Source of the DNA: Bacteroidota bacterium | GTDB lineage: Bacteria; Bacteroidota; Bacteroidia; Chitinophagales; Chitinophagaceae | Reading direction: 5' to 3' | DNA: 57,512 bases | Assembly: GCA_030706605.1 (NCBI GenBank) | Contig: JAUZOE010000024.1 | Location: 1-57,512 of the forward strand | Shown: in pieces, positions 6,138 through 45,099 of the stretch | Layout: every line of letters begins with the position of its first letter | Numbering within the stretch: the stretch's first letter is position 1 | Program-made: the position numbers and the translations under genes | Notes under the pieces: model-generated | Database searches by the model: none | Told to the model about the DNA's origin: nothing | Seen by the model: the letters and a program-made list of their open reading frames with translations, nothing else

Positions 6138-6154
6138 GGAATTAATGATTGGAT

Positions 6155-6511: not shown

Positions 6512-6704
6512 ATATATTGGTACATTCCTTTTCTGGGTCTCGTTTCAAACAAGGATTATTAGAGAGTTTTCCTTCGGTCTCATAAAAAAAGCGTTAAGAA
6601 AATTTGAATGATAGTCGTTAAGAAATGAATGTTACTATCGCCAGGACATGCACTTAGCTTGTAAGTTGTACTATTGCTGGGATATATTCTATCGTTGGGG
6701 CTAA

Positions 6705-6810
6705 TTTCATTTTAGACCATTATTTAAATTTTTAGCTTTTTTTATGTAGCCTTGATTTTTTTGTTACTTTTTGTGTCAAGACAAAAAGTAAATAAAGCGT
6801 AACTAAATAT
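6705..6810 (+). repeat. Dispersed hairpin repeat, copy 3 (5' part only)
   Basis: Only the first third of the repeat is present, ending near 6810. Its hairpin is perfect here: TTACTTTTTGT (6764-6774), a six-base loop and ACAAAAAGTAA (6781-6791). It lies in the same orientation as copy 2, just downstream of the GH78 gene's 3' end. Nothing gene-like is seen in the rest of 6512-6901. Confidence 0.75.
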
Positions 6811-6901: not shown

Positions 6902-9178
6902 TCATTTTGTAATCAATACATGTTTTCCGGCAGGCACGTTTTTAATGATAAAAAAACCATCTTTTGGAATAAGATTACTTTTTTGTCCATCAATAATCAA
7001 GTCTGGTTTCTTTGAATCAAACGCTACATAAATATTGGCTCTTGTGTCCCCGGGGATAGTTACTTTCATTGCATCCATAAGTTCACTTTTCTTGCAGGAA
7101 ACTGAAATGGCACCTTTGATGGTGGGCGTTTTTAATTCAGCAAAGGAAAGATTCCCTAACTCTGGTTTTACCTGGAAGGTGTCAAAACCGGGAGTGAGTG
7201 GTTCAACGCCCATCAGTTTTCTAACGATAATATTGGCAGGTGCGGCGCCCCAGGCATGGTTCCAGTCAAGATTGGGTTTATATACTTTGTCCCAGGCTTC
7301 CATGGTAATGGTAGAGCCACTGCGAATCATATTGTACCAGCTTCTCTGGGTAGTGGCATCTAATAACGTTAATGCATAATCGTCCTCATCATTATCGTAT
7401 AAGGCATCTAACAGGAATTGGGCTCCGTAAACACTGCAGGCCATTTTTCTTGTTTTAATAAAATTTACTACTTTCTCAATATTGTTTTTGGGAACCAGGC
7501 CAAAAGCGAGAGCAAACATATTGGCATGTAAAGAAGTATGGTTGGTACTGTCTCCGTCTTTTATTAAACCCGTTGCCGGATTCAGAAAAATATTTTGAAA
7601 AGAGTGATAAACCTCTTTTTCTTTTTCTTCATAGAATTTTGCATCTCCTTTTTTCTGCAGGACTGTTGCAATCTTTTGCATTAATACCAAAGCCCTGTAA
7701 TAATAAGCATTTACCACAGCATTATAATCATTAAAAACAAAGCCGTCCTGTTCTCCGTCGTATTCTTTTTCATTACCAATATAATGGCTTCCGTGAGGCC
7801 AGTCTACATTATCTCTAAGGCCGCTCTTATCGTCAAATTTTTCAGGGAAGTGAATCGATTTTAAAAATTCCGGTGTTTGTTTACCTGTTGTTGTGCTGAT
7901 GAGTTCATTGTTTCCGGCAAGGGGCATCAGTAATTTTTTCTGTAATTCTGTATAATATTTTTTAAGAAATGAGTCATCACCCGTGTACATATAATCGTTC
8001 CATGCCAGCATGATATTTTGCAGGCTCCATTCTGTAGGCCACGTAGGATTATAAATTACATAAGCCATAGAGCGCCTTGCCATGCTGTATTCCGGGTCAA
8101 CTGAATAATGTGATAACTGGTTGATCAATGCATCCGCTTCATAAGGAACCCGCTCCCTGTCGCCATCCACATAATAGCCCGTGAAGCTGGTAGCTTTTTC
8201 AGAATATTTACACAGATCCCATACTTTATTTAAAACACTATCACTGGAAATAAAATGAGAAGCATGATCATCAAACGGGTAGAAAACCATCTTCCGGTGG
8301 ATAGATTCTTTATTGAGTTTTCCTTTATAATTAGTAATCCTTACATACCTGAAAGGAAATACTTCTCCAATATATGCAGGCATTAATATCGGGCTGTTTC
8401 TATGGTTTCTTTTTTCATTGGGCGGCCAGTGAATAAGATAATCATGTGTCCCTTTTTTTACCAACAAGCCAATCTTTATGTAGCGAATATTGCCGTTTGT
8501 ATTCAGAAGTTCATAATTACTTTTTAACGCTTCTCCTGCCTCTATCCATATAGAATCATTTACCGGGCTTGACAGATGTAATTGCAATTGCCCAAATCCA
8601 TCTTTGCCAAAATCTAAAAAGTCAGTGTTGTCATCTTTTTTAAATATGGTAGCGGGAGTTTGTATTGTTGCAGATAAGGGATAATGTGAAATATTATTTG
8701 AAGAATCTTTTGCGCTTAGAAAGAAGGCGGTATTATCTGAAAAGGGGGTTATAGCATCTTCATCGTTCCATACAGCTACTTTCCAATAATATACTTTACC
8801 GGGAATAAGTGCTTTCCCATCATAAACGGCACGGGTATCAGTTGATTTTATTTTTTTTGAATCCCAGTAATCTCCTTTATCTCTGTCCAACAACCAGGAA
8901 GAAGATGCCACCAGGATTCTCCATGCTTTTACTTTTTTTATGGAGGTATCCACTTCCCAGTTAAACACGGGCCTGGTACCATATATTTTTGCAGACTGGT
9001 ATTGGTCTTTTTGGTTTATAGCGGCAAAGATTGGTTTATTTACCTGTAGCCCCCTACTGCTCACATTTCCTGTATGCAATAAGAAATCACACCGAAGATG
9101 ATTGGGAGCCAATAAAACCTGGCAGTTTGCAGATATAGATAAAATAGTAAACAGGACAGTAATTAAAACAAGCTTCAT
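6902..9178 (-). CDS. Secreted GH78-type alpha-L-rhamnosidase
   Basis: This 758-residue enzyme has a signal peptide ending near SANCQ. N-terminal beta domains (about 60-300) include the WRILVASS and YYWKVAVW segments typical of rhamnosidase D and N domains. An alpha/alpha six-hairpin barrel follows, and then a C-terminal beta domain. The GH78 acidic cluster appears in compact form: YYVDGDRERVPYEADAL gives D338 or D340, E342 and D349. The second catalytic region is GSTITMEAWD, followed by NHAWGAAPANII. It should remove terminal alpha-rhamnose, though related six-hairpin enzymes can act on other sugars. Its upstream region contains the 9322-9335 palindrome, and it is divergent from the sulfatase operon. 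Confidence 0.82.
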   Translation of the reverse strand: MKLVLITVLFTILSISANCQVLLAPNHLRCDFLLHTGNVSSRGLQVNKPIFAAINQKDQYQSAKIYGTRPVFNWEVDTSIKKVKAWRILVASSSWLLDRDKGDYWDSKKIKSTDTRAVYDGKALIPGKVYYWKVAVWNDEDAITPFSDNTAFFLSAKDSSNNISHYPLSATIQTPATIFKKDDNTDFLDFGKDGFGQLQLHLSSPVNDSIWIEAGEALKSNYELLNTNGNIRYIKIGLLVKKGTHDYLIHWPPNEKRNHRNSPILMPAYIGEVFPFRYVRITNYKGKLNKESIHRKMVFYPFDDHASHFISSDSVLNKVWDLCKYSEKATSFTGYYVDGDRERVPYEADALINQLSHYSVDPEYSMARRSMAYVIYNPTWPTEWSLQNIMLAWNDYMYTGDDSFLKKYYTELQKKLLMPLAGNNELISTTTGKQTPEFLKSIHFPEKFDDKSGLRDNVDWPHGSHYIGNEKEYDGEQDGFVFNDYNAVVNAYYYRALVLMQKIATVLQKKGDAKFYEEKEKEVYHSFQNIFLNPATGLIKDGDSTNHTSLHANMFALAFGLVPKNNIEKVVNFIKTRKMACSVYGAQFLLDALYDNDEDDYALTLLDATTQRSWYNMIRSGSTITMEAWDKVYKPNLDWNHAWGAAPANIIVRKLMGVEPLTPGFDTFQVKPELGNLSFAELKTPTIKGAISVSCKKSELMDAMKVTIPGDTRANIYVAFDSKKPDLIIDGQKSNLIPKDGFFIIKNVPAGKHVLITK

Positions 9179-9321
9179 TTTTTTTGATTAATTAGTTATA
9201 GCAATCGAAAAGATTTTTTCAGGTATTTTCCTTAAAAACAGCATTTGCATCAGGATAGGCGAATCATGATTTCCTCTTTTTTAAAAATACCGTTCAATTC
9301 AAACTATTCTCCGTTTTTCTT

Positions 9322-9335
9322 CGGAAACGTTTCCG
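9322..9335. promoter_or_regulatory. LacI-family-type operator, upstream of GH78
   Basis: The perfect 14-bp palindrome CGGAAACGTTTCCG with a central CG step is typical of LacI-family operators. It lies about 145 bp before the GH78 start and about 445 bp before the divergent DUF1961-sulfatase operon. The identical 14-mer occurs at 31241-31254 before the GH88 gene. No LacI-family gene is in the window. Confidence 0.65.
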
Positions 9336-9610
9336 TAAAAATAAAAAAGCGATGGATAAAATATTGATAATTTGTAGCCGGATTTAAAATGAATTTTTTA
9401 TTAATATTCTTTTGAATCACTTACGAAACTGCTTAATGATATTATCAACCAATTTTGTGGTAAGTGTTATCGTAATTTTTTTAATTCTAAAATTGATGTC
9501 CTTTTAGAATATAAACATATATGATTGCCGGTATTCCCTGCAATTTAAATTAATAATATAAAATTTAATTGTTATCAACTGGAATTTAAAAATGAGAAAT
9601 AGTTAAATGA

Positions 9611-9703
9611 GTGAGAACTCTTAGATTAAATACCAATTTTACTATTCTTGCCTTAGCTCTTTTGAGTTGTGGCCAGCATAAAATTATTTATCATAAAGAA
9701 TGA
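9611..9703 (+). pseudogene. Micro-ORF resembling a lipoprotein signal peptide
   Basis: A GTG-initiated 30-codon frame encodes a basic N-terminus, the hydrophobic stretch FTILALALLSCGQHK and a perfect lipobox (LLSC-G), then stops nine codons after the cysteine. It may be the 5' remnant of a decayed lipoprotein gene or a tiny lipopeptide. It lies in the 440-base leader between the 9322 operator and the DUF1961 gene. It may also be chance, since GTG starts and hydrophobic frames are not rare. Nothing else gene-like is seen in 9336-9780. Confidence 0.3.
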
Positions 9704-9780
9704 CGAATTTAAAAAGTTTTGGAAGATTGCGCCTTGCCCAGAGATAAACAGAGCATTAAATTAATTTTAATAATAGGGAA

Positions 9781-10509
9781 ATGATTGCAAGAAAAGCCAT
9801 ATTTTTTTTGATTTTATTAGTGCTTACTATTAGTAATGGGTATTCTCAAAGTGAGATAGCTTTAAGAAAAGGGAAATTGATATATGAGAATTCAATGGGC
9901 AATGCAGAGATGGTTAAAGGTTGGAAAATGGAAGGCCCTGGCGAGTTGAAATTTAATGATGGATGGATGGAAATGTATGCTCCCAACAAAAAATGGGATC
10001 ACGTATTCTGGTGTCCTATGGATTTCCCGGGAAGTTTTATAGCAGAATGGGAAATGCAAAATAGGGATACCACCAGTGGTCTTACTATTGTATTCTTTGC
10101 TGCTAAAGGCTCTAAAGGCGAAGATATTTTTGATCCGGCATTACCTGCCAGGGATGGAACTTTTAAGTATTATAATAAGGGGCAGATCGATTGCTATCAT
10201 ATTTCCTATTATTCCAATAACCCTAAAAATCCTGAAAGAGATGACTCTCATTTGAGGAAGGATCCAATGTTTGCATTGTTACAAACAGGAGAAGAGGGGA
10301 TTGCTAAAAATTCGTTGGAGGTTCATAAAGTGATATTAGTAAAAAAGCAGGCACACATTCTCATGTATATAGATGGCAGGAAAATCATTGATGCTACAGA
10401 TGATGGAAAAACTTTCGGACCGGTATATACTTCCGGTAAAATTGGATTCAGGCAAATGAGATGGACTGATTTCCGGTATCGCAATTTTAAAGTATGGGAA
10501 ATTAAATAA
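9781..10509 (+). CDS. DUF1961 family protein (YesU-like), secreted
   Basis: This 242-residue protein has a signal peptide (1-22, ending GYSQ) and a single concanavalin-like beta-sandwich predicted from its tryptophan-rich strands. Examples are WKMEGPGELKFNDGWMEMY, WDHVFWCPMDFPG and GKIGFRQMRWTDFRYRNFKVW. These match DUF1961, the family of Bacillus subtilis YesU from the rhamnogalacturonan gene cluster. No enzyme activity is established for this protein, and it may bind or cleave a uronate polysaccharide. It is the first gene of the long plus-strand operon, 27 bases before the first sulfatase. Its ATG follows a 440-base leader. Confidence 0.75.
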   Translation: MIARKAIFFLILLVLTISNGYSQSEIALRKGKLIYENSMGNAEMVKGWKMEGPGELKFNDGWMEMYAPNKKWDHVFWCPMDFPGSFIAEWEMQNRDTTSGLTIVFFAAKGSKGEDIFDPALPARDGTFKYYNKGQIDCYHISYYSNNPKNPERDDSHLRKDPMFALLQTGEEGIAKNSLEVHKVILVKKQAHILMYIDGRKIIDATDDGKTFGPVYTSGKIGFRQMRWTDFRYRNFKVWEIK

Positions 10510-10536
10510 TCATCGCGTCATTAAAAAGAATTAAAA

Positions 10537-11988
10537 ATGAAAAAAACAATAAGGCAGATACTGGTAATTTATTTTATGCTTTTTCATTTTTTGACGGCCG
10601 GCGCTCAAAAAGTAAAAAGCCCTAATTTCATATTTATTCTTACAGATGACCAGGGCTGGACTTCTGTGTCTTCTTCTATGGATAACCGCCATCCTGAGAA
10701 TAAAAGTGATTTTGATGAAACGCCCAATATTGACCGTTTAGGTGATGAAGGAATGAGGTTCAGTGCAGGCTATGCGCCGGCGGCATTATGTACACCTTCA
10801 CGACGAAGCATTCAATTTGGTCAGACTCCTATACACATTGGTAATACTACATTCAAAAAGAATTATGACCCTCACAAACACAAATGGCTTACAATTCCTT
10901 TGATGTTAAAATCAATAAACCCCCGTTATCAAACTGCTCATTATGGCAAGTGGGACTTAAGGGCTGATATATTTCCGGAAGATTTGGGTTATGATGAGAG
11001 TGATGGTAATACGGGGAATAATAATGGCGATTTGATGACAGATAAAAAAACAAAGTGGTCACAAGTATATATAACAAGGGATCCCAAAAAAACTTTTACC
11101 ATCACAGCGCGGGCGCTTAATTTTATGCAAAGACAGGTACAGTCTGATCATCCTTTTTACATGCAGCTTTCCTTTTATGCGCCTCATGTGGATATGGAAA
11201 CTACCCAAAAAACGTATGATAAATTCTTAAAAAAACCTAAAGGAAAAATTCATGACAATCCCGGTTGGGCAGCTATGCTGAATGATTTGGATAAAGGAAT
11301 AGGGGAGGTATTGGATATGGTTGATAAATTAGGGATTGCCGATAATACCTACATTATCCTGATGTCTGATAATGGAGGAGTGGAATTTCTTCCACCGCCA
11401 CCCGCAAAACACAAATTAGATCCGCCGTCTGCATTTGAGAAAAAAATGATCAATTATCCTTTACGGGGAGGAAAATGGGCGTTGTATGAAGGAGGAACAA
11501 GGGTGCCGTTTATCGTTAGAGGCCCTGGGATAAATCCTCATAGCTATTGTCATTCACCCGTTTTTGGCTATGATCTTTTACCAACGATAGGCGAACTTGC
11601 AGGGGACAAGCAACCACTTCCTGGTTACCTCGATGGGGTCAGCATTATACCTTTGCTTCATGACCCCGCAAATGGAAAAGTGCCAAGAAAGGTTAGTGAC
11701 TTTTATTTTCATCGGTATGCACCCAGCTATGAACATTCGTCTATCATTGAAGGCAATTATAAATTGATCAAATTCTGGGTTACAGGTAAGGAAGAATTAT
11801 ATGATCTTAATAACGATATAGGCGAAACTCAGGATTTAGCGGCAAGCATGCCTGGTAAGGTTAAGGAATTGGACAATAAACTTATGTTGTACCTAAATAA
11901 GGAGCATTCGGAAATACTGGATGCTGCAATATCAAAAGAAAAAAAATCTAAAAAAGACAAACCTGGTTCAGAAGATGATGATGACTAA
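10537..11988 (+). CDS. S1-family sulfatase
   Basis: This 483-residue secreted sulfatase has a signal peptide ending near TAGAQ. The FIFILTDDQGW segment holds the Ca2+-binding aspartates D37 and D38. The formylglycine site is CTPSR (C85), which must be converted to formylglycine before the enzyme can cleave sulfate esters. A second metal-site segment, MSDNGG, lies near 278. The C-terminus ends in a lysine-rich stretch and an acidic SEDDDD tail. The stop overlaps the start of the lyase gene, so the two are translationally coupled. The position of the sulfate on the sugar cannot be read from sequence. Confidence 0.93.
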   Translation: MKKTIRQILVIYFMLFHFLTAGAQKVKSPNFIFILTDDQGWTSVSSSMDNRHPENKSDFDETPNIDRLGDEGMRFSAGYAPAALCTPSRRSIQFGQTPIHIGNTTFKKNYDPHKHKWLTIPLMLKSINPRYQTAHYGKWDLRADIFPEDLGYDESDGNTGNNNGDLMTDKKTKWSQVYITRDPKKTFTITARALNFMQRQVQSDHPFYMQLSFYAPHVDMETTQKTYDKFLKKPKGKIHDNPGWAAMLNDLDKGIGEVLDMVDKLGIADNTYIILMSDNGGVEFLPPPPAKHKLDPPSAFEKKMINYPLRGGKWALYEGGTRVPFIVRGPGINPHSYCHSPVFGYDLLPTIGELAGDKQPLPGYLDGVSIIPLLHDPANGKVPRKVSDFYFHRYAPSYEHSSIIEGNYKLIKFWVTGKEELYDLNNDIGETQDLAASMPGKVKELDNKLMLYLNKEHSEILDAAISKEKKSKKDKPGSEDDDD

Positions 11989-14686
11989 ATATATTTTAAT
12001 TTCAAATAGAAAATCCCAACTCACTTTTTGCAGAATAGGGATAACCATTTTTCTTATTGGTGCAGCAATGGCTTCTTTTGCCCAGGAAAATAATCAACAA
12101 CCGGAGTTCCCCAAAGACTATCCTGTAATACATCCTCAATTCAGAAAATGGGCTTCGCCGGCTTTAAATAATGAATCTGCCTCTGTATCTCCCATCTTGC
12201 GCTGGCCTGCTGACAGAAAAGGAAAGAATACTTATGATGTGAGGCTATCAATGGATAGCACTTTTGATAATAAAGATTTAATTACAGCACAAAATATACC
12301 ATGGACCATATTTAATCCTCACCGCCAATTGCAATATGGTACATGGTATTGGCAATACGGGTTGCATAATGGTTCATGGTCAGGTACTTTAAAATTTCGT
12401 ATAGGCGATAATGCTATCAAGACCTTTGCTCCTCCAGTTCAGAAGTTCTGGGCTGCTATTCCTGCTGGGCATCCAAGGGTTTTGATTAATAGAAATGATG
12501 AAAAATTGTTTATTAAAAACGTGAAGGGGAATGAAGATGCGATGATTATATTGAAGAAAGCGGATGATCTGTTGGGAATGACCCCGCCGGGAGAAAAGGA
12601 AGGTGAAAGCAAAAAGGATGGAAATTCAGATATGGAAAACAGGAAACTGGAGATAATAGCCAGTGAACATGCAAGTAATAAAATATATAATGCGGTGGAT
12701 CATTTTTGTAAAGCCTACTTAATTAGCAAAGATAAAAAGTATGAAAAGAAAGCGCTGGAATGGGGGATGGCTGTTGCAGGCTGGAATCCTGACGGAGTAA
12801 GCCATTCCAGTGATTTTGGGGATGCAAGATGTATGGTGTCTATGGCGGAGGTTTTTGATACTTTCAATGATGATCTTACTCCTTCGCAAAAGGCGATATT
12901 ATTAAAATCTATCCAGGTAAGGGCCGGTCGTTTTTATCATGAATGGATCAATAATATTGATGTCAAGGTATTATCCAATCATGTTTGGCAATATATTTTT
13001 CATTACTTTTTTCAAACGGCTATTGCTGTTTACGGAGATGTGGATGAGGCAAAAAACTGGGTTAATTATGCCTATGAACTTTGGCTGGCAAAAGCTCCTA
13101 TATTAGGCGGCGGAGATGGTGGATGGGGAGAGGGCGCTTCTTATTTCAGGCTGGATATGGAGACACTACTCGGTGTTCCTATGATTATTAAAGAATATAC
13201 GAGTTTTGATTTTTTGAAAAATAATGAATGGTATCAGAGAAATCCGTATTGGATGGCTTATTCTTTCCCCGCAGGTTCTTCTACTGATGGTTTTGGAGAC
13301 GATGTTGAAAAGATTTACGCTCCCGGGACGGAGTATTTAGCCTACGCGGATGCCTTATCTAAACTAACAGGCAATCAAATAGCTGCCTGGTATGCTCATC
13401 AGATTGAACTAGCCGGAAAGGGTGATGATACCGTTGGTGAAAGAGTAAATGGAGTAACCTCGTATACGAAGAAAAATAAACAGGCTGGTCAATTAAAATT
13501 GTCAGATGCTGATATGCTTCGCTGGTTCAGGTTGCGATACCTGCGCAATATTAAACGACCCGGTATGATTGATGGCAAGTCACTCCCCGCCGCAGAAGTA
13601 TTCAAAGGAGTAGGTATTGCCGATATGCATTCTCATGTTACCGACACCAAAAACGACCTGATGATTTCTTTTCGTTCGAGTCCTTATGGTGCTTATGGTC
13701 ACCTGCTGGCCGATCAAAACACTTTTAATATTTTATATGGTGGGAAAAGATTGTTTTATATGTCGGGGCATAAAGTGGCCATGCAGGACCCTCATCGCCT
13801 GGGTTGGTATAAGGCCACTATTGGACATAACGGTATCCTTATAGACGATAAAGGCCAGCCGTTCAATACAGAAGCTTATGGATATATAGCCAAATTTTTA
13901 AACGGTAAAAATGTAAGTTATGTTATGGGAGATGCAAGCCAGGCTTATAGTAGTAAGGCAAAAAAAGAACAACCGGGGTTAACGAAATTTCATCGTCATT
14001 TACTTTTTCTGCATCCTAATATCTTACTGGTTTACGATGAATTGGAAGCCAATCATCCTGCTAAATGGTCGTGGCTGATTCATAGCCCTTTTAAGATTGA
14101 TGTAGATGCTGCTAATAATACATTCCGCTGCGATTCAGGAAATATTTCTGCAAAAGTGGCTCTTTTTTCTCAGCAATCACTTCATTGGGAATTAGCCGAC
14201 ACATTTGCAATTCCTGCTGTAAACTGGATAGGGAGGGAAGATGAGGATGGTAATCTTATTGAATATAAAAATGATCAATGGCACTTAACAGCTTTTAATA
14301 CCCGGAAAACTGCGAAGATGCGCTTCCTGGCAGTTTTTATGATCAATCCACCCGGCGAAATACTAAACAAACCCGTATCTTATATCTTTAATGATAAAAA
14401 TGAACTAATAATTGGCAAATGGATTATCAAAGCAGAACTGGATGCTGAGAAACCTCCTTTGCTGGAAGCACATACCAGTGATCATAAAATTGTCTTTAGC
14501 TCTTCAGCAAACAGCGTATCCTCCGGAAGCAAAGAATTTGTGGGTAAAATAAATGGATCTGCGAAATTATTGGAATGGCTAAATGGCAACTACCGCTTTT
14601 CCGAAGCAGGAAATATGATTCCTGAAGCTATTAAATCAATACCGGTTAAAGACACTAATTTAAAACAACGCCTTCATGAAAAATAG
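11981..14686 (+). CDS. DUF4962 / heparinase II-III-type polysaccharide lyase
   Basis: The start is set at 11981, giving about 901 residues. Two in-frame ATGs lie 3 and 6 bases earlier, and a longer frame opens at 11921 inside the sulfatase gene but would add a highly basic tail. After the signal peptide comes an N-terminal beta domain of the DUF4962 type with HPRVLINRNDE near 150. An alpha/alpha toroid (about 200-560) contains GGWGEGASYFRLDMETLL. A heparinase II/III-like beta domain (about 590-830) contains SFRSSPYGAYGH and IGHNGILID. The fold is that of PL12/15/17/21 lyases, which cut uronate polysaccharides by beta-elimination. The GH88 gene nearby fits such a product. The exact substrate is unknown. 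Confidence 0.78.
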   Translation: MTKYILISNRKSQLTFCRIGITIFLIGAAMASFAQENNQQPEFPKDYPVIHPQFRKWASPALNNESASVSPILRWPADRKGKNTYDVRLSMDSTFDNKDLITAQNIPWTIFNPHRQLQYGTWYWQYGLHNGSWSGTLKFRIGDNAIKTFAPPVQKFWAAIPAGHPRVLINRNDEKLFIKNVKGNEDAMIILKKADDLLGMTPPGEKEGESKKDGNSDMENRKLEIIASEHASNKIYNAVDHFCKAYLISKDKKYEKKALEWGMAVAGWNPDGVSHSSDFGDARCMVSMAEVFDTFNDDLTPSQKAILLKSIQVRAGRFYHEWINNIDVKVLSNHVWQYIFHYFFQTAIAVYGDVDEAKNWVNYAYELWLAKAPILGGGDGGWGEGASYFRLDMETLLGVPMIIKEYTSFDFLKNNEWYQRNPYWMAYSFPAGSSTDGFGDDVEKIYAPGTEYLAYADALSKLTGNQIAAWYAHQIELAGKGDDTVGERVNGVTSYTKKNKQAGQLKLSDADMLRWFRLRYLRNIKRPGMIDGKSLPAAEVFKGVGIADMHSHVTDTKNDLMISFRSSPYGAYGHLLADQNTFNILYGGKRLFYMSGHKVAMQDPHRLGWYKATIGHNGILIDDKGQPFNTEAYGYIAKFLNGKNVSYVMGDASQAYSSKAKKEQPGLTKFHRHLLFLHPNILLVYDELEANHPAKWSWLIHSPFKIDVDAANNTFRCDSGNISAKVALFSQQSLHWELADTFAIPAVNWIGREDEDGNLIEYKNDQWHLTAFNTRKTAKMRFLAVFMINPPGEILNKPVSYIFNDKNELIIGKWIIKAELDAEKPPLLEAHTSDHKIVFSSSANSVSSGSKEFVGKINGSAKLLEWLNGNYRFSEAGNMIPEAIKSIPVKDTNLKQRLHEK

Positions 14687-17833: not shown

Positions 17834-17889
17834 CCTTGATGAAATGCATCCCTGGTGCAATAATTTAAAAACTGTTGAAACTAAATATT

Positions 17890-19449: not shown

Positions 19450-19467
19450 AAATATTAAACTAAAAAA

Positions 19468-21009: not shown

Positions 21010-21020
21010 ACCTTAATATT

Positions 21021-22550: not shown

Positions 22551-22588
22551 TTAGTCGATAGACTATTTTTCTTTTAAAAAATTTATTT

Positions 22589-24637: not shown

Positions 24638-24662
24638 AAGAAACAATGAATACTATTCATTT

Positions 24663-26276: not shown

Positions 26277-26357
26277 TTTTTTGTTTAAAAAATTTATTCA
26301 AAGAGCAGGAAGTAAATTGATGGTTACTTTTGAAAAATAACTTATTTGTGTATCTTG

Positions 26358-27485: not shown

Positions 27486-27736
27486 CTTCAAAGTTTATAG
27501 AGTGATAACTAATTATTGCAAAATATCATTGATTACATTTTCTTGCTTTATTCTTCTTCTTTGTTATTTTTTTATACGAAATCGTTTGCAGAGAAAATTT
27601 CCGATTACTTAAAAGCTATTCTTAATTTCAAGCTGGTAAATTATTAAATATACATGGTTATAATAAAATATCACAAACATGGTATATGATTTTTAATTAC
27701 TATTTAACCCAAACTTTTAAACTAAAAATTAAATCA
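27486..27736. promoter_or_regulatory. Candidate promoter region with degenerate operator
   Basis: The 250-base gap after the FGE gene probably holds a promoter for the GH-D-like gene. CGAAATCGTTTGCA (27578-27591) keeps 10 of 14 positions of the 9322 and 31241 palindromes, including the central CG, but its arms are not fully symmetric. Support is weak. Confidence 0.3.
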
Positions 27737-29896
27737 ATGAAGATTACAATATCATTGCTGTTGTTAATTTTTTTTAGCGGAATGAATTTTTCTGTTTCCG
27801 CTCAATCAAAAGAAGATATATCCGTAAAAGTTAATTCTAAGTCCGGAAGTTACACAATCACATCGAATGATCTTAAATGGAAATTCAGCGGCAGCATCGG
27901 CCAGCCTTTAGGTGATTTACAATTTGCCACTGGGAGTGATGCTGTAGGTACATTTAAATCATACACTTTTAACTGGAAAAGCAATAATGATTATGTGGGA
28001 AGTATTCGCTGGTATGCAAAATCACCTGTTGTTATATTTTCTTTATCTATTCCCAAAGGCGCTACAGGACAGTCACCTGTTGCCTTTCCTGAATTTACGA
28101 CTATTCCGGTTTCCTTATATCATTTTAGTTATCACGATGTTGATTTTTCTACACCTGAGTTTACATTGAATGAAACTTCTACGCCCTGGTTATTATTCGA
28201 TAATAATAAAAATGCCTGTGTCATTTCCCCTGCGTCTGATTTTATTGTAGCTAAACTATCGGGCAATGGGACTACGAATATCAGCAGTGGATTAAATGCA
28301 GAAGTTCAGCAAATACTCGCAAATTTTACGCATACTACTATGATGGTTTTTGACAAGGGAATCCAAAATACATGGAATGTTTGGGGAAGCGCTTTGCGTA
28401 GTTTATATAATCGTCAGCGCCCTGCCAATGATGCGGATAAAGTATTGAAATATTTCGGGTACTGGACTGATAACGGAGCCGATTATTATTATAAATATGA
28501 TACCACTATAGGGTATGCGCAAACTTTGTTAGACTTACGGGAACATTACAAAGAGGAGAAAATTCCTTTAGGTTATATGCAATTAGATAGCTGGTGGTAT
28601 GAAAAATCTATCGTTAATCCAAGAGGAGAACCAACAGCCGATCATAAAAATCCTCAATTGCCTTTCGGGCCATGGAATCGTTATGGAGGCTTAATGGAAT
28701 ACAGGGCAGATCCTTTCTTGTTTCCTGATGGCCTGGCACATTTTCAGCAAAAACTGGGTTTACCTATGGTTACTCATAATCGTTGGGTAGATCCGACAAG
28801 TCCATACCAGAAGATGTATAAAATTTCCAGGTATGCCGCAGTTGATCCCGGTTATTGGAAAGATATAATGGATTATATCAAAGCTTCGGGAGTGATTTGT
28901 TATGAACAGGACTGGCTGAATCAAATTTATATGCAAAGCCCAAAGATGGCTTCTGACTTATCTGTTGGTAATGCCTTCACCGATGGTATGGCCAATGCTG
29001 CAAAAGTGGATGGATTAAGTTTACAATATTGTATGGCAATGCCAAGACATTTTTTACAAGGTGTTAAATATAACAACCTAACGACGATACGTACCAGCGG
29101 AGATCGTTTTCAACCAAAAAGATGGATGCCCTTTATTTTTACCTCTCAGCTTGGATACGAGATGGGTATCTGGCCCTGGTGTGATGTGTTTAAAAGTTCC
29201 GAACTGGGTAATATGATTCTTGCTAATTTATCTGCCGGTCCAGTAGGAACTGGCGATGCCATAGGAAAGGAAGATAAAGCCAATATTATGTTGACTTGTA
29301 GAAATGATGGTGTATTGGTAAAACCTGATGTTCCTTTATTGCCAATGGATGAAGATTATGTACAAATGGCGCAACAGGATAACAAACCTGTACTGGCTTA
29401 TACTTATACAAAACATCATAATATCACCACCAATTATGTGTTTGCATTTGCAACCGAACAGACAAGCGATATGGGAGTAAGTTTTAAACCTGCAGATATT
29501 GGTATGATTGGAAAGGTGGTGGTATATGATCCTATGCACAATAAGTTGCAGATTATATCAGCTAATGAAACCTTTAAAGACGTTTTGCCCGGCGATAAGT
29601 ACACTTATTATATCATTGCCCCGGTTACCAGTTCGGGCATTGCCTTTCTGGGAGATGCCGGGAAAATTACAGCTACAGGTAAAAAACGAATTGCCGATGT
29701 CATCGCCTCAGGAAAAGAAATGCAGGTGAAAGTATTATTTGCCAAAAGCGAATCATCTGTTACGTTGCGTGGATATGCAGATCATATTGTTACTGCTGAT
29801 AAAGGGAAAGTAACCGTAGACCCTTCTACTCATTTATTTTCATTGGTTTTATCGGCGCCCGCTAAAGGAAATAGCGTAAGTGTGAATTTTAAATGA
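27737..29896 (+). CDS. Clan GH-D-like glycoside hydrolase (GH27/GH31/GH36-like)
   Basis: The frame opens at 27686, but the ATG at 27737 begins a clean signal peptide (MKITISLLLLIFFSG), giving 719 residues. An N-terminal beta domain (about 25-225) is followed by a barrel containing PLGYMQLDSWWYEK (277-290) and CYEQDWLNQ (388-396), with D392 as nucleophile candidate. IRTSGDRF (451-458) gives D456 as acid/base candidate. The RTSGD element parallels RTTGDI of the GH27 enzyme at 4554. A C-terminal beta domain follows. Clan GH-D enzymes cleave alpha-galactosides and related alpha-linked sugars. The spacing and flanks do not match a family I can name with certainty, so the substrate is open. Confidence 0.6.
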   Translation: MKITISLLLLIFFSGMNFSVSAQSKEDISVKVNSKSGSYTITSNDLKWKFSGSIGQPLGDLQFATGSDAVGTFKSYTFNWKSNNDYVGSIRWYAKSPVVIFSLSIPKGATGQSPVAFPEFTTIPVSLYHFSYHDVDFSTPEFTLNETSTPWLLFDNNKNACVISPASDFIVAKLSGNGTTNISSGLNAEVQQILANFTHTTMMVFDKGIQNTWNVWGSALRSLYNRQRPANDADKVLKYFGYWTDNGADYYYKYDTTIGYAQTLLDLREHYKEEKIPLGYMQLDSWWYEKSIVNPRGEPTADHKNPQLPFGPWNRYGGLMEYRADPFLFPDGLAHFQQKLGLPMVTHNRWVDPTSPYQKMYKISRYAAVDPGYWKDIMDYIKASGVICYEQDWLNQIYMQSPKMASDLSVGNAFTDGMANAAKVDGLSLQYCMAMPRHFLQGVKYNNLTTIRTSGDRFQPKRWMPFIFTSQLGYEMGIWPWCDVFKSSELGNMILANLSAGPVGTGDAIGKEDKANIMLTCRNDGVLVKPDVPLLPMDEDYVQMAQQDNKPVLAYTYTKHHNITTNYVFAFATEQTSDMGVSFKPADIGMIGKVVVYDPMHNKLQIISANETFKDVLPGDKYTYYIIAPVTSSGIAFLGDAGKITATGKKRIADVIASGKEMQVKVLFAKSESSVTLRGYADHIVTADKGKVTVDPSTHLFSLVLSAPAKGNSVSVNFK

Positions 29897-29955
29897 CAAA
29901 TAAAAATAATTAACTCATTTATAATCGCAAATTTTTAAACAATAATATAATTCTA

Positions 29956-31161
29956 TTATTGAATAGAGGATAGTGTATTATAATTTTTGTAGCGCCACAA
30001 TGCCTGTAAAAAATAATAATCTGCGTACACAACAGGAACATCAACTCCTGTATTTGAATGTTTATTTACTACACTATGTTTTAATAAAAAATAATAGTTA
30101 GATCCTGGCATTGCTAAATATTTGTCAGTGCATAAGTTTTGTAAAATTTTTATTGCCATATTATAGTATAACGATTTTGGAACGGCTTGGTAATGGCTAA
30201 GTTCCAGCAGGCCGGAAGCTGCTATTGCGGCAGCGGAAACATCTTTAGGAGTATTAGGTATAGCAGGATCATTAAAATCCCAGTAAGGAATATAGTCGGG
30301 TATTTTTTTTAGCTGGCTAATGAAATAATTTGCGGCTTTCATTGCATATTCTAAATATTTTTTGTTGTGAGTATATCGATAGGCCATGGTCAGGCCATAA
30401 ATGGCCCAGGCTTGTCCCCGTGTCCAGCAGGAAGAATCACTATAGCCTTGCCAGGTTTTACTAGCAAGTAATTTGCCGGATCTGGGATCAAAATCCAATA
30501 CATGATAAGTGCTGCCATCTTTACGAAAACGATATTTTAAAGCATTATTGAGATGCGAAATCGCAATATGGGAAAAAGAAGTATCGTGAGAAGTTTTAGC
30601 AGCCCAAAATAATAATTCAAGATTCATAAGATTATCTACGATTACCGGGTAATGCCATGGACCTCCATCCCATGAACGAATGCTGCCGACTACAGGATTA
30701 AATCTATGGATTAATGTTTTTGCTCCCTGGAGCAAAATGTTTTTATATGTACTGTCATGAATGAGATTTAATCCATTACCAAATGAAGTATATAAGATAA
30801 AGCCAAGGTCATGAGTTTTTGTTACCCATTCGGCTGGTGCCAGGGAAACGGTCCATTTTTTAGCATCATCTTCCCATTTTTTATTTTTAGTAAAGCGATA
30901 GAGATACCATAATGCACCGGGAAAGAATCCGCTTGTCCAATCTTTATAAGTAACCGACTTGACCTCATTATTCTTATTAATACTATAAAGATGCCAATTG
31001 CTGTCAGGTTGTTGATTAATATAAGCCTGATACTGGGACGCAGCTAAATTCAAAGCTTTTTCAACTGGGATGGTACTGGTTGATTGTGCGATCGTATTGC
31101 TTGCAGCCAGAAAAAAGAAAGCAGAAACAATAATACTTTTATAAAATCGTAAAGTAATCAT
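29956..31161 (-). CDS. GH88 unsaturated glucuronyl hydrolase
   Basis: This 401-residue secreted enzyme has a signal peptide ending NTIAQ. It has the alpha/alpha six-hairpin fold with KDWTSGFFPGALWYLY, the conserved aspartate D118 in THDLGF and D176 in VDNLMNLELLFWA. These correspond to the two essential aspartates of the family. SCWTRGQAWAIYG follows. The enzyme hydrates and cleaves unsaturated uronic acids from the non-reducing end of oligosaccharides made by polysaccharide lyases. That links it to the lyase at 11981. It is transcribed opposite to the main operon from a promoter carrying the 31241-31254 operator. Confidence 0.9.
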   Translation of the reverse strand: MITLRFYKSIIVSAFFFLAASNTIAQSTSTIPVEKALNLAASQYQAYINQQPDSNWHLYSINKNNEVKSVTYKDWTSGFFPGALWYLYRFTKNKKWEDDAKKWTVSLAPAEWVTKTHDLGFILYTSFGNGLNLIHDSTYKNILLQGAKTLIHRFNPVVGSIRSWDGGPWHYPVIVDNLMNLELLFWAAKTSHDTSFSHIAISHLNNALKYRFRKDGSTYHVLDFDPRSGKLLASKTWQGYSDSSCWTRGQAWAIYGLTMAYRYTHNKKYLEYAMKAANYFISQLKKIPDYIPYWDFNDPAIPNTPKDVSAAAIAASGLLELSHYQAVPKSLYYNMAIKILQNLCTDKYLAMPGSNYYFLLKHSVVNKHSNTGVDVPVVYADYYFLQALWRYKNYNTLSSIQ

Positions 31162-31240
31162 AAGTATAATGGCTTTTAGTGAAATTAATAATTAAATTAT
31201 ATAGGTACGATACCCGGATTCAAAATTAAAGAGGCATTTA

Positions 31241-31254
31241 CGGAAACGTTTCCG
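31241..31254. promoter_or_regulatory. LacI-family-type operator, upstream of GH88
   Basis: CGGAAACGTTTCCG is identical to the 9322-9335 palindrome. Here it extends to a perfect 16-bp palindrome (31240-31255, A and T added). It lies about 80 bp before the GH88 start and about 350 bp before the SDR-UxuA-GH2 group, in a 440-base divergent region that otherwise shows no gene. The two sites bracket the cluster and point to one shared regulator. Confidence 0.68.
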
Positions 31255-31601
31255 TTAAAAATCTATTTGCCCTTAATAAAAAATTACAAATTTGCTTAGT
31301 GAATTAAGTATTGCTTGTTTACAACAATATTGAGTTGTTTTGCTCTAAAAACATAGTCTGTCAGTAATGTTTTTCCAATAAATAAAGAATGAAGATTAGA
31401 TTCTGTGTATTGTTGTTAAGTATGAATTACTTAAAAGAGTAAAAAATGGCAATTGCTAAGAAGAATATTGATATATTAGAGGCCAAATTATATGATCATT
31501 ATATATTAGTCTATAACTAACTATTTAGTATACAAAATTTAAAATTGAAAGTGGTTTCATACCTTATTATAATCAGAAATACATAATTAAAAATTAAAGC
31601 A

Positions 31602-32423
31602 TTGGATTCAGAGAATGGTTTTTTATTAAGAGAAAAAGTTATTGTAGTAACAGGTGGTACGGGTATTTTAGGTAATTCCTTTATTAATGGAATTGCAAAT
31701 GCCGGCGGAATTGTTGGTGTACTTGGCAGAAATGAAAAGGTTGCTGATGAAAGGGTAGCATCAATCTCGAGCAAAGGTGGTAAAGCTATCGCATTGATTG
31801 CGGATGTTACTAATGAATATCAATTAGTTGGAGCAAAGAAAAAAATATTAGATGCATTTGGCAGAATAGACGGCCTTGTAAATGCTGCAGGCGGAAATTT
31901 ACCGGGCGCTATTGTTCAACCAGACGAGGATGTTTTTAATTTGGATATAAATGCCTTAAATGAAGTTTTGCGTTTAAATTTATTTGGTACGATTTTACCA
32001 ACACAAATATTTGGAGAGGCTTTGAAAAATAATGGTAGGGGGAGTGTCGTAAATATTTCTTCGATGGCTTCTCAAACAGTAATTACAAGAGTACTTGGTT
32101 ATAGCATGGCAAAAAGCGCAATAGACTCCTATACCCGGTGGTTTGCAGTTGAGCTTGGGAAAAGATATGGAGACAAAATCAGGATGAATGCCATTGCGCC
32201 AGGATTTTTTCTTACGGAGCAAAACAGGAAACTTTTAACAAATGAAAACGGAAGCTTAACGGAGAGAGGGGACCTGATTACTAAAAAAACGCCTTTCAAT
32301 CGTTTTGGAAATCCTGACGAACTTATTGGTGCACTGATATGGTTATTAAGTGATGCTTCAAAATTTGTCACCGGAACGGTAGTAAATGTAGATGGAGGCT
32401 TTTCAATATTCGGTGGAGTATAA
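31602..32423 (+). CDS. SDR oxidoreductase, probable D-mannonate/fructuronate reductase
   Basis: This 273-residue short-chain dehydrogenase has the Rossmann motif VTGGTGILG (17-24), NAAG (94-97), and the catalytic SS with YxxxK at Y167 and K171. It ends with the usual VVNVDGGFS. The start is TTG: a stop codon (31584-31586) lies upstream in frame, there is no ATG between, and the first in-frame ATG is far inside the Rossmann fold. It lies 15 bases before the mannonate dehydratase gene, and the pair converts D-fructuronate to D-mannonate and then 2-keto-3-deoxygluconate. The reductase assignment rests on that neighbour and on the SDR type of fructuronate reductase known in some bacteria. Confidence 0.78.
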   Translation: MDSENGFLLREKVIVVTGGTGILGNSFINGIANAGGIVGVLGRNEKVADERVASISSKGGKAIALIADVTNEYQLVGAKKKILDAFGRIDGLVNAAGGNLPGAIVQPDEDVFNLDINALNEVLRLNLFGTILPTQIFGEALKNNGRGSVVNISSMASQTVITRVLGYSMAKSAIDSYTRWFAVELGKRYGDKIRMNAIAPGFFLTEQNRKLLTNENGSLTERGDLITKKTPFNRFGNPDELIGALIWLLSDASKFVTGTVVNVDGGFSIFGGV

Positions 32424-32438
32424 ACAATAAAAAATTGA

Positions 32439-33608
32439 ATGAAAATGTTTAAAATGGAACAAACATGGCGATGGTATGGCAATGAAGACCCGGTTAGCCT
32501 ACAGGATATAAAGCAGGCTGGGGCCACAGGAATAGTAACCGCTTTGCATCATATTCCTCATGGAGAAATCTGGACTGTGGATGAAATTAATAAAAGGAAG
32601 GCAGAAGTAGAAAAAGAAGGATTTACCTGGTCTGTGGTAGAAAGTATTACGGTACATGAAAGCATTAAAACCAGGACCGGAGACTATAAAAACTATATTG
32701 AGAAATACAAAACTTCAATTCGTAATGTAGCTGCCTGTGGCATACCGGTAATTACCTACAACTTTATGCCGGTAAACGACTGGACCCGAACTTCATTAAA
32801 TTATAAAATGCATGACGGATCCCTGGCGCTTTATTTTAACTGGATTGACCTGGCAATTTTTGACATTTATATTTTAAAAAGAAAGAACGCAGACAATTCT
32901 TATTCAAAAGATATTTTGCAAAAAGCAGAAGATCGGTTTAAGACTTATTCTGAAGAACAATTGGAAGCCCTGGCTGGAGTTGTTATGTTCGGAATACCCG
33001 GTGAGAAAAAAATATCTACCACTGAAATGTTGCAGAAACTGGAATGGTATAAAGATATTGATGCCGCTGCCCTGCGTGAAAACCTTTGTTTTTTTCAAAA
33101 CGAAATAAGTGCGGTAGCAGAGGAATGTGGCGTTAAACTAGCCATCCATCCTGATGATCCTCCGTTTCCTATTTTGGGATTACCAAGGGTTGTCAGCACA
33201 CAATCAGATTATGAATATTTTTTAAATAAAATAGATAATCCTGCCAATGGAGTTTGCTTCTGCACAGGTTCATTAGGCGCTTCGGGGAATAATGATCTGC
33301 CGGTTATGGTTAAGGCATTTGGTGAAAAAATTAATTTTATTCATTTGCGAAATGTAAAAAGAGATGTAGAAGGAAATTTTTATGAAGCCGATCACCTGGG
33401 GGGCGATAATGATATGTATGCTATAGTAAAGGAATTATTATTGATACAACAAAGATTAAAAAAATCAATTCCCTTTCGTCCCGATCATGGACACCAGATG
33501 TTAGACGATTTGAAGAAGGTCACCAATCCAGGGTATTCTGCTATTGGCAGGTTGAGAGGACTCGCGGAAATAAGAGGTCTTGAGATGGGTATTCTTGGTG
33601 GTTTATAA
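32439..33608 (+). CDS. uxuA: Mannonate dehydratase
   Basis: The 389-residue cytosolic protein matches UxuA over its length. MEQTWRWYG (from the ATG at 32454, or five residues earlier in this frame) equals the classical UxuA N-terminus, followed by [20 protein letters not shown]. Further family motifs are [17 protein letters not shown] and the late RPDHGHQML. UxuA dehydrates D-mannonate to 2-keto-3-deoxy-D-gluconate in glucuronate catabolism, using a divalent metal. It implies that D-glucuronate is one product of the polysaccharide. Uronate isomerase (UxaC) and KDG kinase/aldolase are not in the window. Confidence 0.95.
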
Positions 33609-33653
33609 AAATTAGTAAAAGGGGAAAATCGGGAAAATATTTTTTAAATTAAT

Positions 33654-35489
33654 ATGCAAATGAGAAAATCAACTGTTTTTTGCTTTTTGTTATTGCTGGG
33701 GAATCACTTGTTAGCTCAAAAAAACAGTTGGCATATGGTTAAGGGTAAAATCACCACTCCATGGGCCGATAGTGTTAATCCCCTTAACGTATTGCCTGAG
33801 TATCCCCGCCCTCAGATGAAACGGGATAACTGGACCAACCTAAATGGTCTATGGCAATATACCGTATTGCCTGAATCAGGAGATGAAAATATTCCTGCCT
33901 CTTTCCGGGGAAATATATTGGTTCCGTTTGCTATCGAATCTGCCTTATCTGGTGTTGGAACTAATGTTGGGAAAGATAGTATTCTTTGGTACCAGAGAAC
34001 AATCACCGTTCCCGGGAAAAGGAAAGAAAAAAGAATATTACTCCATTTTGGTGCAATAGACTGGAGAAGCGATATATACGTGAATGGAGCTAAAGTCGCC
34101 TCTCATGAAGGCGGATATGATCCGTTTACAGTAGATATTACCAATAGTTTACATAAAGGAACATCGCAACAATTATCTATCCGTGTTTGGGATCCCACGG
34201 ATGACGGCCCTCAGCCACATGGTAAGCAGGTAGCAAAGCCACACGGTATATGGTATACTTCTGTTACCGGTATCTGGCAAACAGTTTGGATGGAAATTGT
34301 TCCTGAAACATACATCATATCTACTCGCCAGACACCGGATATTGATAACCAAAATATAAGAGTAAGCGCCTCAATTCAAAATCTGAAACAAGGCGATGAA
34401 ATAAGTATTTCAGCATGGAAAGGCAATGAAAAAATTGCGGAAAAAACAGGCGCAGATACCGCAGGTATTCTAACAATAAGTAATCCTGAATTATGGTCTC
34501 CTTCTCATCCGTTTTTATATGACCTGAAAATTTCGATAATCCGGAAAGCAAAAGTGATAGACGAAGTAACAAGTTATTTCACGATGCGTAAGATTTCTAT
34601 TGCTCCGGATAAAAATGGAATTCAAAAGATGATGCTGAACAATGCATTTTTATTTGAATTCGGTCCTCTTGACCAGGGATGGTGGCCCGATGGTTTATAT
34701 ACGGCACCCACAGATGGGGCACTGAAATCTGATATTGAGAAATTAAAGGAAATGGGATTTAACATGATACGTAAACACGTAAAAGTGGAACCTGCACGCT
34801 GGTATTATGACTGTGATCAATTGGGGATGCTTGTATGGCAGGATATGCCAAGTGGTGATTTGGGAAATCATTGGGAACCCAGACCTGGCGTGCTGGGCAA
34901 GCAAACTGACAGGCAACGAACACCAGAAAGCGAAGGGTATTATCGAAAAGAATGGAACGCCATTATGGATGCATTGTATAACTTTCCCTGCATTGTAGTA
35001 TGGGTTCCTTTCAATGAGGCCTGGGGCCAGTTTAAAACTGTTGACATTACCAACTGGACTATGCAAAAGGATCCTTCAAGATTAGTGAACAGTGCCAGTG
35101 GCGGCAATTATTATGATGTGGGTCAAATTGTCGATTTACATAATTACCCAGATCCTGCAATGCCAAGACCTGAACTTTTTGGTGCAAAGCAGGCATTAGT
35201 GTTGGGTGAATTTGGTGGCCTGGGTTTACCCGTAGATGGCCATACCTGGCAGCAAAAAAGCTGGGGATATCAAAGTTTTCAAAGCCGTGACAGTTTATTT
35301 GAAAGATACAGTTCTCTTATTAACAGGTTGGAAGAATTAATAAAAAAAGGCCTTTCTGCTGCAGTATATACTCAAACTACCGATGTTGAAACAGAAGTAA
35401 ATGGATTTATGACTTATGATAGAAAGGTGATTAAAATGCCTGTTGATAAACTCAAAAAGGCCAATCAAAAAGTGTATACTGTTTTCTGA
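33654..35489 (+). CDS. GH2 glycoside hydrolase (beta-galactosidase/beta-glucuronidase-like)
   Basis: This 611-residue secreted enzyme has a signal peptide ending LLAQ and a sugar-binding jelly-roll domain (about 45-220) with TNLNGLWQY and ILLHFGAIDWRSDIYVNG. An immunoglobulin-like domain (about 225-315) and a catalytic barrel complete the fold. The acid/base glutamate is E455 in WVPFNEAWGQ, and the likely nucleophile is E519 in ALVLGEFGG. At 611 residues it lacks the extra C-terminal domains of large GH2 proteins. It follows uxuA by 45 bases and probably forms one unit with the SDR and uxuA genes. It may release galactose, glucuronate or another beta-linked sugar. Confidence 0.85.
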   Translation: MQMRKSTVFCFLLLLGNHLLAQKNSWHMVKGKITTPWADSVNPLNVLPEYPRPQMKRDNWTNLNGLWQYTVLPESGDENIPASFRGNILVPFAIESALSGVGTNVGKDSILWYQRTITVPGKRKEKRILLHFGAIDWRSDIYVNGAKVASHEGGYDPFTVDITNSLHKGTSQQLSIRVWDPTDDGPQPHGKQVAKPHGIWYTSVTGIWQTVWMEIVPETYIISTRQTPDIDNQNIRVSASIQNLKQGDEISISAWKGNEKIAEKTGADTAGILTISNPELWSPSHPFLYDLKISIIRKAKVIDEVTSYFTMRKISIAPDKNGIQKMMLNNAFLFEFGPLDQGWWPDGLYTAPTDGALKSDIEKLKEMGFNMIRKHVKVEPARWYYDCDQLGMLVWQDMPSGDLGNHWEPRPGVLGKQTDRQRTPESEGYYRKEWNAIMDALYNFPCIVVWVPFNEAWGQFKTVDITNWTMQKDPSRLVNSASGGNYYDVGQIVDLHNYPDPAMPRPELFGAKQALVLGEFGGLGLPVDGHTWQQKSWGYQSFQSRDSLFERYSSLINRLEELIKKGLSAAVYTQTTDVETEVNGFMTYDRKVIKMPVDKLKKANQKVYTVF

Positions 35490-36602: not shown

Positions 36603-36731
36603 ATGGAATATCTCTAAGGCTAATTTATCAAAATTATAATAGAAAACCTGGAAGATATAATTTTCCCAATTTGATATTTCTAAAGTATTATTCAGTTTTT
36701 AATAATTAAATTTGAACATTAAACCACAAAG

Positions 36732-37184: not shown

Positions 37185-37199
37185 TCTTTTTTAGCAAGC

Positions 37200-38045: not shown

Positions 38046-38083
38046 ATTTGCACTCAACACAAAAAAGTATTTAATTATTTATT

Positions 38084-39190: not shown

Positions 39191-39290
39191 ATTAATAATT
39201 ACAAATAGTACCAATAACTACGTTGAATTATAAGCGGATTGCGGGCTGTTTAAAAAAATAAAAACAATTATCCATTATTAATCTATATCA

Positions 39291-45090: not shown

Positions 45091-45099
45091 TGATAAATT

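Follow-up and report, generated by a model that had tools for sequence, protein, structure and literature searches.

Which uptake system serves a cluster of sulfatases and polysaccharide-degrading enzymes that has no SusC/D pair beside it? The question is posed by contig C17 of a member of the Chitinophagaceae (assembly GCA_030706605.1, contig JAUZOE010000024.1), the whole of which, 57,512 bases, is the window analyzed here; the genome comprises 4.27 Mb in 71 contigs and is 99.7% complete. The original prediction had recognized a sulfated-uronide degradation cluster in the window and had offered either uptake genes located elsewhere or a different uptake route as reasons for the lack of SusC/D. 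Very probably, the system to which this cluster belongs serves the utilization of a sulfated heteropolysaccharide rich in uronates, with one half encoded here and the other on contig C9 of the same genome. Three things were observed directly: which genes the two halves contain, that their counterparts are linked in related genomes, and that near-identical palindromes are present at both.

The window does hold the clustered carbohydrate-active enzymes, sulfatases, and degradation genes of a polysaccharide utilization locus (PUL), but no adjacent SusC/SusD pair. Four SusD matches were recovered from the genome, on C53, C9, C18, and C1, and none on C17; among the 49 open reading frames (ORFs) of the window, no SusC or TonB domain was detected in the 40 covered by the Pfam scan, and the other nine, all shorter than 230 aa, are too short for SusC. 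The broader statement that more than 50 kb lack any transporter was inexact, in that an ABC transporter (SBP_bac_11, permease, and ATPase), probably of an inorganic-anion type, is encoded at 43149-45855. On C9, the SusC/D pair is located between a GH92 and a short-chain dehydrogenase/reductase (SDR) gene, beside a LacI-family regulator. Further along are GH28, GH3, an esterase, and two proteins of 722 aa, and additionally two GH27s and more enzymes up to the cut left end of the contig, the locus spanning about 1-31 kb. Both 722-aa proteins (L010:389-2557 and 8688-10856) are secreted and matched nothing significantly in Pfam; in five relatives (G016, G026, G197, G249, and G162) at least one of them, and in G026 just one, has a counterpart near SusC/D. 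Contig C53 (whole, L009) is a 10.6-kb piece carrying SusC, SusD, FecR-like and ECF-sigma-like genes (named by eye), and two sulfatases, one of which is cut by the contig end.

Of the four SusC/D pairs in the genome, only that on C9 gave reciprocal best hits of 48-81% (in G016, G026, G197, G249, and G162), and in these same five relatives its counterparts share a locus with counterparts of window genes. The suggestion that the uptake genes lie elsewhere was thus borne out, and given the C9 pair a different uptake route is unneeded. Of the 18 window locus genes, 8 have counterparts, at 69-80% identity, in a continuous locus (918-980 kb of contig C1) of G016, a relative from the window genome's own genus. 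The C9-type LacI (85%), SDR (71%), SusC (76%), SusD (81%), and GH92 (86%) are there as well, and identity is 68-87% for every gene of this locus that has a counterpart on C9 or in the window. The order there is LacI, SDR, SusC, SusD, GH92, both 722-aa proteins, GH78, operator, GH27, S1 sulfatase d (S1d), GH28, PhoD, a 1269-aa protein, GH115, formylglycine-generating enzyme (FGE), and a 736-aa protein that we call X736. Parafilimonas terrae (G026, NZ_FOXQ01000010.1), of the same family, has DUF1961-S1a-lyase-S1b-S1c-S1d-GH28-S1e-X736-GH88 in the window order, and the near edge of this cluster is 8.4 kb from the counterparts of the C9 pair (SusC 70%, SusD 74%); on that contig the lyase operon occupies 101-118 kb and the SusC/D operon 126-132 kb. 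In G197, counterparts of 16 of the 18 genes, at 31-74% and including weak ones for GH2 (31%), GH88 (42%), and GH27 (48%), are distributed over about 95 kb that open with the C9-type LacI, SDR, SusC, and SusD. A protein of 1269-1281 aa is located between PhoD and GH115 in G197 (L067:8198-12043) and G016 (L086:2213-6022), and is not at that place in the window.

The lyase of the cluster provided a second entry to related loci. Counting the window genome, 2 of 119 relatives had it at E<=1e-20 and 9 of 396 order-level genomes at E<=1e-60; with G026 added, nine other genomes thus carry the lyase. Seven of these neighborhoods were read (G026, G197, G249, G162, G242, G300, and G354; not G274 and G311), and five, the first five named, had a SusC/D pair on the stretch read; in four (G026, G197, G249, and G162) that pair and the one on C9 were reciprocal best hits (48-74%).

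The two halves also appear to be joined by a putative LacI-type regulon, with operator-like palindromes common to both. The exact palindrome CGGAAACGTTTCCG occurs in the window between GH78 and DUF1961 and again between GH88 and SDR, and is the sole recurring sequence among the eight perfect-palindrome sites of the window. The original prediction had matching operators bracketing the cluster; the match holds, with two exact copies, but the sites mark two divergent promoter regions rather than cluster ends. It had also proposed a genome search for SusC/D near further copies; at the C9 pair, CGAAAACGTTTTCG occurs 281 nt upstream of SDR-SusC-SusD and 191 nt upstream of LacI. In the 4.27-Mb genome as a whole, four sites fit the merged pattern CGRAAACGTTTYCG, two in the window and two on C9 (before SDR-SusC-SusD and before LacI). 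As CGRAAACGTTTYCG was built by merging the window and C9 palindromes, a score of four out of four is partly circular and weight therefore rests on the relatives. Across 20 genomes, 11 of 13 CGRAAACGTTTYCG sites were in these loci (four in the window genome, G000; three each in G016 and G197; one in G026), the others being in G162, about 200 kb from its own locus, and in G001.

Placement in the relatives was as follows. G016 has an exact CGGAAACGTTTCCG palindrome between GH27 and GH78 (937897), and exact to two-mismatch copies before GH27/GH78, a 916-aa GH2-like gene, SusC, SDR, LacI, and two other enzyme genes. G197 has exact copies before S1a (95910) and two other genes, with variants before LacI, SDR, and SusC, while in G026 there is a one-mismatch hybrid site, CGAAAACGTTTCCG, before DUF1961 (117740), a two-mismatch copy before GH88 (101127), and a one- or two-mismatch copy before LacI. 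The C9 LacI itself has counterparts in all three, at 71-85%. A further genome, G021, was fetched for its LacI homolog alone (L089:11402-12466, 63% like that of C9), such that its site is independent of pattern building; an exact CGGAAACGTTTCCG lies 51 nt before this gene, with a different SusC/D pair alongside. Since the G021 locus is otherwise unlike that of the window, this pairing of regulator and operator may be used by other PULs too. A LacI on C4, first considered as the regulator for a recognition-helix resemblance to RbsR, was dropped because the C9 LacI is linked to the locus in three relatives, and a third exact 12-mer, GGAAACGTTTCC (C31:2408), was rejected as an operator, being inside a sulfatase reading frame.

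Several results weigh against this reading. The 13 CGRAAACGTTTYCG sites compare with 17 for a reversed control (control places not shown), so that support comes from the placement of sites and not from their number, and once two mismatches are tolerated the palindrome is no more frequent than chance (24 sites versus 34 in the control). The LacI family extends beyond the cluster, 25 of 119 relatives having a match at E<=1e-80 versus 2 of 119 for the lyase, and in G249 and G162 the LacI next to the lyase is of another type (27-29%). The G242 SusC/D pair is only 21-29% like that of C9, and no SusC/D was seen in the G300 and G354 lyase neighborhoods (20 kb each). G016 lacks the lyase genome-wide, and the 80 kb read there contained no DUF1961, S1a, S1b, S1c, S1e, or GH88; the lyase module is therefore separable from the SusC/D part. 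The reciprocal best hits hold for comparisons between 37 proteins of the window genome and the stretches fetched, not genome-wide. Finally, the scheme as a whole is a prediction from families, synteny, and operators.

Table 1. Features of the window locus (contig C17) and the probable uptake and regulatory genes on contig C9.
Feature	Contig	Position	Strand	Matches and remarks
GH27 (alpha-galactosidase-type, clan GH-D)	C17	4554..6137	+	Pfam Melibiase_2 1.3e-36; 76% counterpart within continuous G016 locus
GH78 alpha-L-rhamnosidase	C17	6902..9178	-	Pfam PF17389 2.4e-46; counterparts 77% G016, 65% G197
Operator CGGAAACGTTTCCG, LacI-type (putative)	C17	9322..9335	.	144 nt before GH78 start, 446 nt before DUF1961 ORF
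DUF1961 protein, signal peptide, first gene of main operon	C17	9781..10509	+	Pfam 9.8e-48
S1 sulfatase a (S1a), CTPSR	C17	10537..11988	+	Pfam 3.9e-37; closest structure kappa-carrageenan sulfatase S1_16, 9fo1, E=6e-64
PL15-type lyase, DUF4962 + Hepar_II_III_C	C17	11921..14686	+	Pfam; PDB
S1 sulfatase b (S1b), CSPSR	C17	14676..16307	+	Pfam; closest structure 9fvt, 115 bits
S1 sulfatase c (S1c), CVPSR	C17	16304..17833	+	Pfam; closest structure 7oz8, E=5e-47
S1 sulfatase d (S1d), CTPSR, lipoprotein-like start	C17	17875..19449	+	Closest structures 7p26 E=2e-69, 6s20 (GalNAc-6-O-sulfatase) E=4e-69
GH28, rhamnogalacturonidase-like	C17	19468..21009	+	Pfam 2.4e-19
PhoD-like phosphatase, Tat-like start	C17	21021..22550	+	Pfam 5e-26; counterparts G016 69%, G197 66%
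GH115-related protein	C17	22589..24637	+	Partial Pfam match, 49 bits, residues 292-494; PDB 4zmh 4.2e-7, 5by3 BtGH115A 1.3e-5
S1 sulfatase e (S1e), CSPTR	C17	24663..26276	+	Pfam 4.7e-61
FGE, lipoprotein-like start	C17	26346..27485	+	PF03781; counterparts at same place G016 76%, G197 74%
X736, 736-aa secreted protein	C17	27686..29896	+	Outside Pfam and NCBIfam; counterparts 77/59/59% in G016, G026, G197
GH88 unsaturated glucuronyl hydrolase	C17	29956..31161	-	PDB 3wiw E=4e-93; Pfam 27.1 bits, cut-off 26.6
Operator CGGAAACGTTTCCG, second copy (putative)	C17	31241..31254	.	80 nt before GH88 start, 348 nt before SDR ORF
SDR	C17	31602..32423	+	Pfam 8e-42; homolog adjoins SusC/D on C9
UxuA mannonate dehydratase	C17	32439..33608	+	Pfam 4.8e-121
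GH2	C17	33654..35489	+	Pfam
SusD	C9	23409-25316		
SusC	C9	25349-28357		
SDR	C9	28533-29348		
LacI-family regulator	C9	29873-30883		

Most of the gene assignments that had been made from the sequence alone held up. All five S1 sulfatases have PF00884 and one C-x-P-x-R site each; GH78, GH28, GH2, UxuA, and SDR were each matched by Pfam; the heparinase II/III type of the lyase was confirmed through its two Pfam domains; and GH88, for which the Pfam score barely clears the cut-off, had a strong PDB match. The GH28 scored 274 bits against the NCBIfam BT4146 rhamnogalacturonidase model, under its 500-bit cut-off. The GH115-related enzyme stood in that both Pfam and PDB matched it, but only as a partial domain. 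DUF1961 and PhoD are locus members that had been overlooked, and the SDR is probably a fructuronate/mannonate-type oxidoreductase.

For X736, which had been called a GH-D-like enzyme, confirmation was not obtained, profile and family-model comparisons having yielded nothing: Pfam returned no match up to E=10 (HMMER filters drop most weak matches), NCBIfam returned none, and comparison by hhalign with the profile of GH27, the one clan-D family compared, gave a probability of 0.8%. A structure model from a two-row alignment had a mean pLDDT of 37.5, too low to be of use. The sole PDB match, to an iota-carbonic anhydrase (28.9 bits, E=2.7e-6, residues 29-103), was taken as spurious. X736 matches were found in 2 of 395 phylum genomes, including the window genome, with G016, G026, and G197 not among the matches of that sample. 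A genuine clan-D enzyme, the GH27, precedes position 6902, where the cluster had been taken to begin, and by synteny belongs to the locus.

The lyase has the DUF4962 plus heparinase II/III C-terminal architecture and the His/Tyr/His residues of the PL15 exo-lyases BIexoHep (PL15_2, 6lja) and Atu3025 (PL15_1, 3a0o), and its true start is likely near codon 19-21. These are also its best solved relatives, although it reached only 342 bits (E=6e-101) against the former, an exo-heparinase, and 142 bits against the latter, an alginate lyase, and its gene neighborhood is unlike a heparin or alginate locus. Its His354 (NHVWQ), Tyr408 (EGASYF), and His594 (YGHLLADQ) align with H337, Y390, and H555 of the exo-heparinase, so that the catalytic His, Tyr, and second His of PL15_2 are in place; these are the residues named for BIexoHep in PMC11921355, and 6lja is the exo-heparinase of PMC7904915. 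Exolytic cleavage of heparin, the activity of the PL15_2 exo-heparinase, would be a hypothetical property of the window enzyme. Among the sulfatases, S1a-S1d were compared with PDB structures, and their best matches (115 to 238 bits) are too distant for the substrate to be fixed.

As had been proposed, the activator is an FGE (PF03781), aligning with a solved FGE at E=1e-80 over residues 72-378. It shares the paired cysteines of SUMF1 and bacterial FGEs, as a C-x4-C pair (C347-NASY-C352), and differs from them in a lipoprotein-like start, which was also seen by eye in G016 and G197; sulfatase maturation may therefore occur outside the cytoplasm. GH88 had nine PDB matches up to E=1, eight of them GH88-type (GH88, unsaturated glucuronyl or chondroitin disaccharide hydrolases, and gbs1889, presumably an unsaturated glucuronyl hydrolase), and the ninth (E=0.8) an unrelated transport protein.

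Stepwise breakdown of a sulfated uronide, as originally envisaged, is consistent with the enzyme set. We suggest that the C9 LacI would keep both halves repressed, that an intermediate derived from uronate would release it, and that SusC/D would import oligosaccharides. FGE would turn the sulfatase cysteine into formylglycine, enabling the five sulfatases to remove sulfate; the PL15-type lyase would eliminate at uronates and GH88 take off the unsaturated uronate. GH78, GH28, GH2, and GH27, perhaps with the GH115-related enzyme, would release rhamnose, galacturonate, galactose, and glucuronate, and SDR-UxuA could carry uronate towards 2-keto-3-deoxygluconate.

Other substrates, and another uptake pair, have to be weighed against this. 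An ulvan-like glucuronorhamnan sulfate would suit, in general terms, a set with sulfatases, a rhamnosidase, an unsaturated glucuronyl hydrolase, and the mannonate pathway, yet the lyase and GH88 match PL15 and GH88-type structures, the nearest being a PL15 exo-heparinase or alginate lyase and 3wiw, and neither GH28 nor the GH92 and GH27 linked to the cluster would be expected for ulvan; the earlier ulvan-like guess had no specific support, and we consider this substrate unlikely. An animal glycosaminoglycan such as heparin would account for sulfatases, a PL15_2-like exo-lyase with 6lja as its top PDB match, and a heparin-type GH88 with 3wiw, which we take to be heparin-specific, as its top match. 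Rhamnosidase, GH28, GH27, and GH92 are ill-suited to it, however, and no hexosaminidase family was among the Pfam matches of the scanned locus proteins, although a GH123-like ORF lies 20 kb outside at 56245. Moreover, according to PMC7904915, three of the PL15_2 proteins assayed, one of them from Pedobacter heparinus and 31%-similar, were inactive on every polysaccharide tested, and degradation of heparin or its kin strikes us as quite improbable. That C53 serves the window cluster while C9 serves another glycan draws on the joining of SusC, SusD, a sigma/anti-sigma pair, and two sulfatases on so short a contig, and this second sulfatase-linked pair could also serve the cluster, a point against our main reading. 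Against the assignment to C53, C53 SusC had no reciprocal best hit in the stretches of the eight relatives compared, C53 SusD had only hits of 27-30%, and no CGRAAACGTTTYCG site is on C53. With no clear counterpart in those stretches the C53 pair was rejected as first choice, and we regard its assignment to the cluster as very unlikely.

That SusC/D is absent from the window would then result from rearrangement, from a contig break, or from both. It is conceivable, if somewhat short of an even chance, that the left end of C9 joins the left end of the window across a repeat, in which case the halves are continuous, separated only by assembly, and the locus is an ordinary one. In G016 the order LacI-SDR-SusC-SusD, then GH27, then GH78-operator, and on to X736 is unbroken, and C9 reversed and followed by the window gives the same orientation. 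The left end of C9 truncates a gene in mid-frame, and the first 330 nt of the window are a dispersed repeat, a usual site of assembly breaks, with copies of 80-93% at 6131-6460, 6700-6809, and 51505-51724 and partial copies of 73-96% on C4, C31, and C51. A direct junction was nonetheless rejected, because the cut ORF of C9 is not continued at the left end of the window and the ends have no 12-mer in common; at least one further piece is therefore needed between them. Unrelated genes (aldo-keto reductase and MauG) also intervene between the left window end and GH27, and the window part adjoins a LuxE-M42-BioB block that lies about 600 kb away from the PUL in G016; the locus has therefore moved or been rebuilt in one of the two genomes.

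That block, at 35676-40295, is conserved and comprises LuxE-like, UbiA, M42 peptidase, and BioB/HydE-like genes, with an M42 match in 10 of 10 relatives searched. The GH123-like ORF (56245-57507) is truncated at the right contig end. Neither the Rfam scan nor the tRNA scan found anything in the window.

A precedent for a distal pair comes from the carrageenan regulon of Zobellia galactanivorans, described in PMC5698469 as a sulfatase-rich cluster without SusC/D and with a distal SusCD pair, which in other Bacteroidetes is inside the locus; its induced genes, as in the window, include GH28 and GH2. That system differs in polymer and enzymes and in having an AraC-type regulator, CgrA, whereas a LacI-family gene is implied here, and it was established by RNA-seq and mutants whereas the present one is known from synteny and operators. 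Marine alginate clusters likewise share a repressor-family regulator of a polysaccharide cluster, with LacI- and GntR-family regulators and 8 of 29 regulators of the LacI family in PMC7874173, although the polymer there is alginate. A search of the open-licence PMC literature found no paper on Chitinophagaceae sulfatase PULs. A sulfatase cluster with a distal SusCD pair appears to be of a known kind, the new part presumably being the polymer and two families without Pfam models. Possible, if doubtful, is that the two halves are a PUL not described before, directed at a sulfated acidic polysaccharide other than ulvan, carrageenan, alginate, or glycosaminoglycan, such as a soil or freshwater cyanobacterial or algal exopolysaccharide. 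Its PL15 lyase would then have a new specificity, X736 and the 722-aa proteins of C9 would be two enzyme families that match nothing in Pfam, and a lipoprotein FGE would activate the sulfatases outside the cytoplasm.

Most likely, the two halves together are an ordinary gene set with which this soil- or water-type member of the Bacteroidota eats a sulfated acidic polysaccharide, and SusC/D would be lacking nearby because the locus is in two pieces, with no novel route of uptake involved. Its enzyme core, the PL15-type lyase with all or part of S1a-S1d, recurs in family- and order-level relatives. For enzyme discovery, the two Pfam-less protein families are concrete targets, as is the lyase, the catalytic residues of which are intact.

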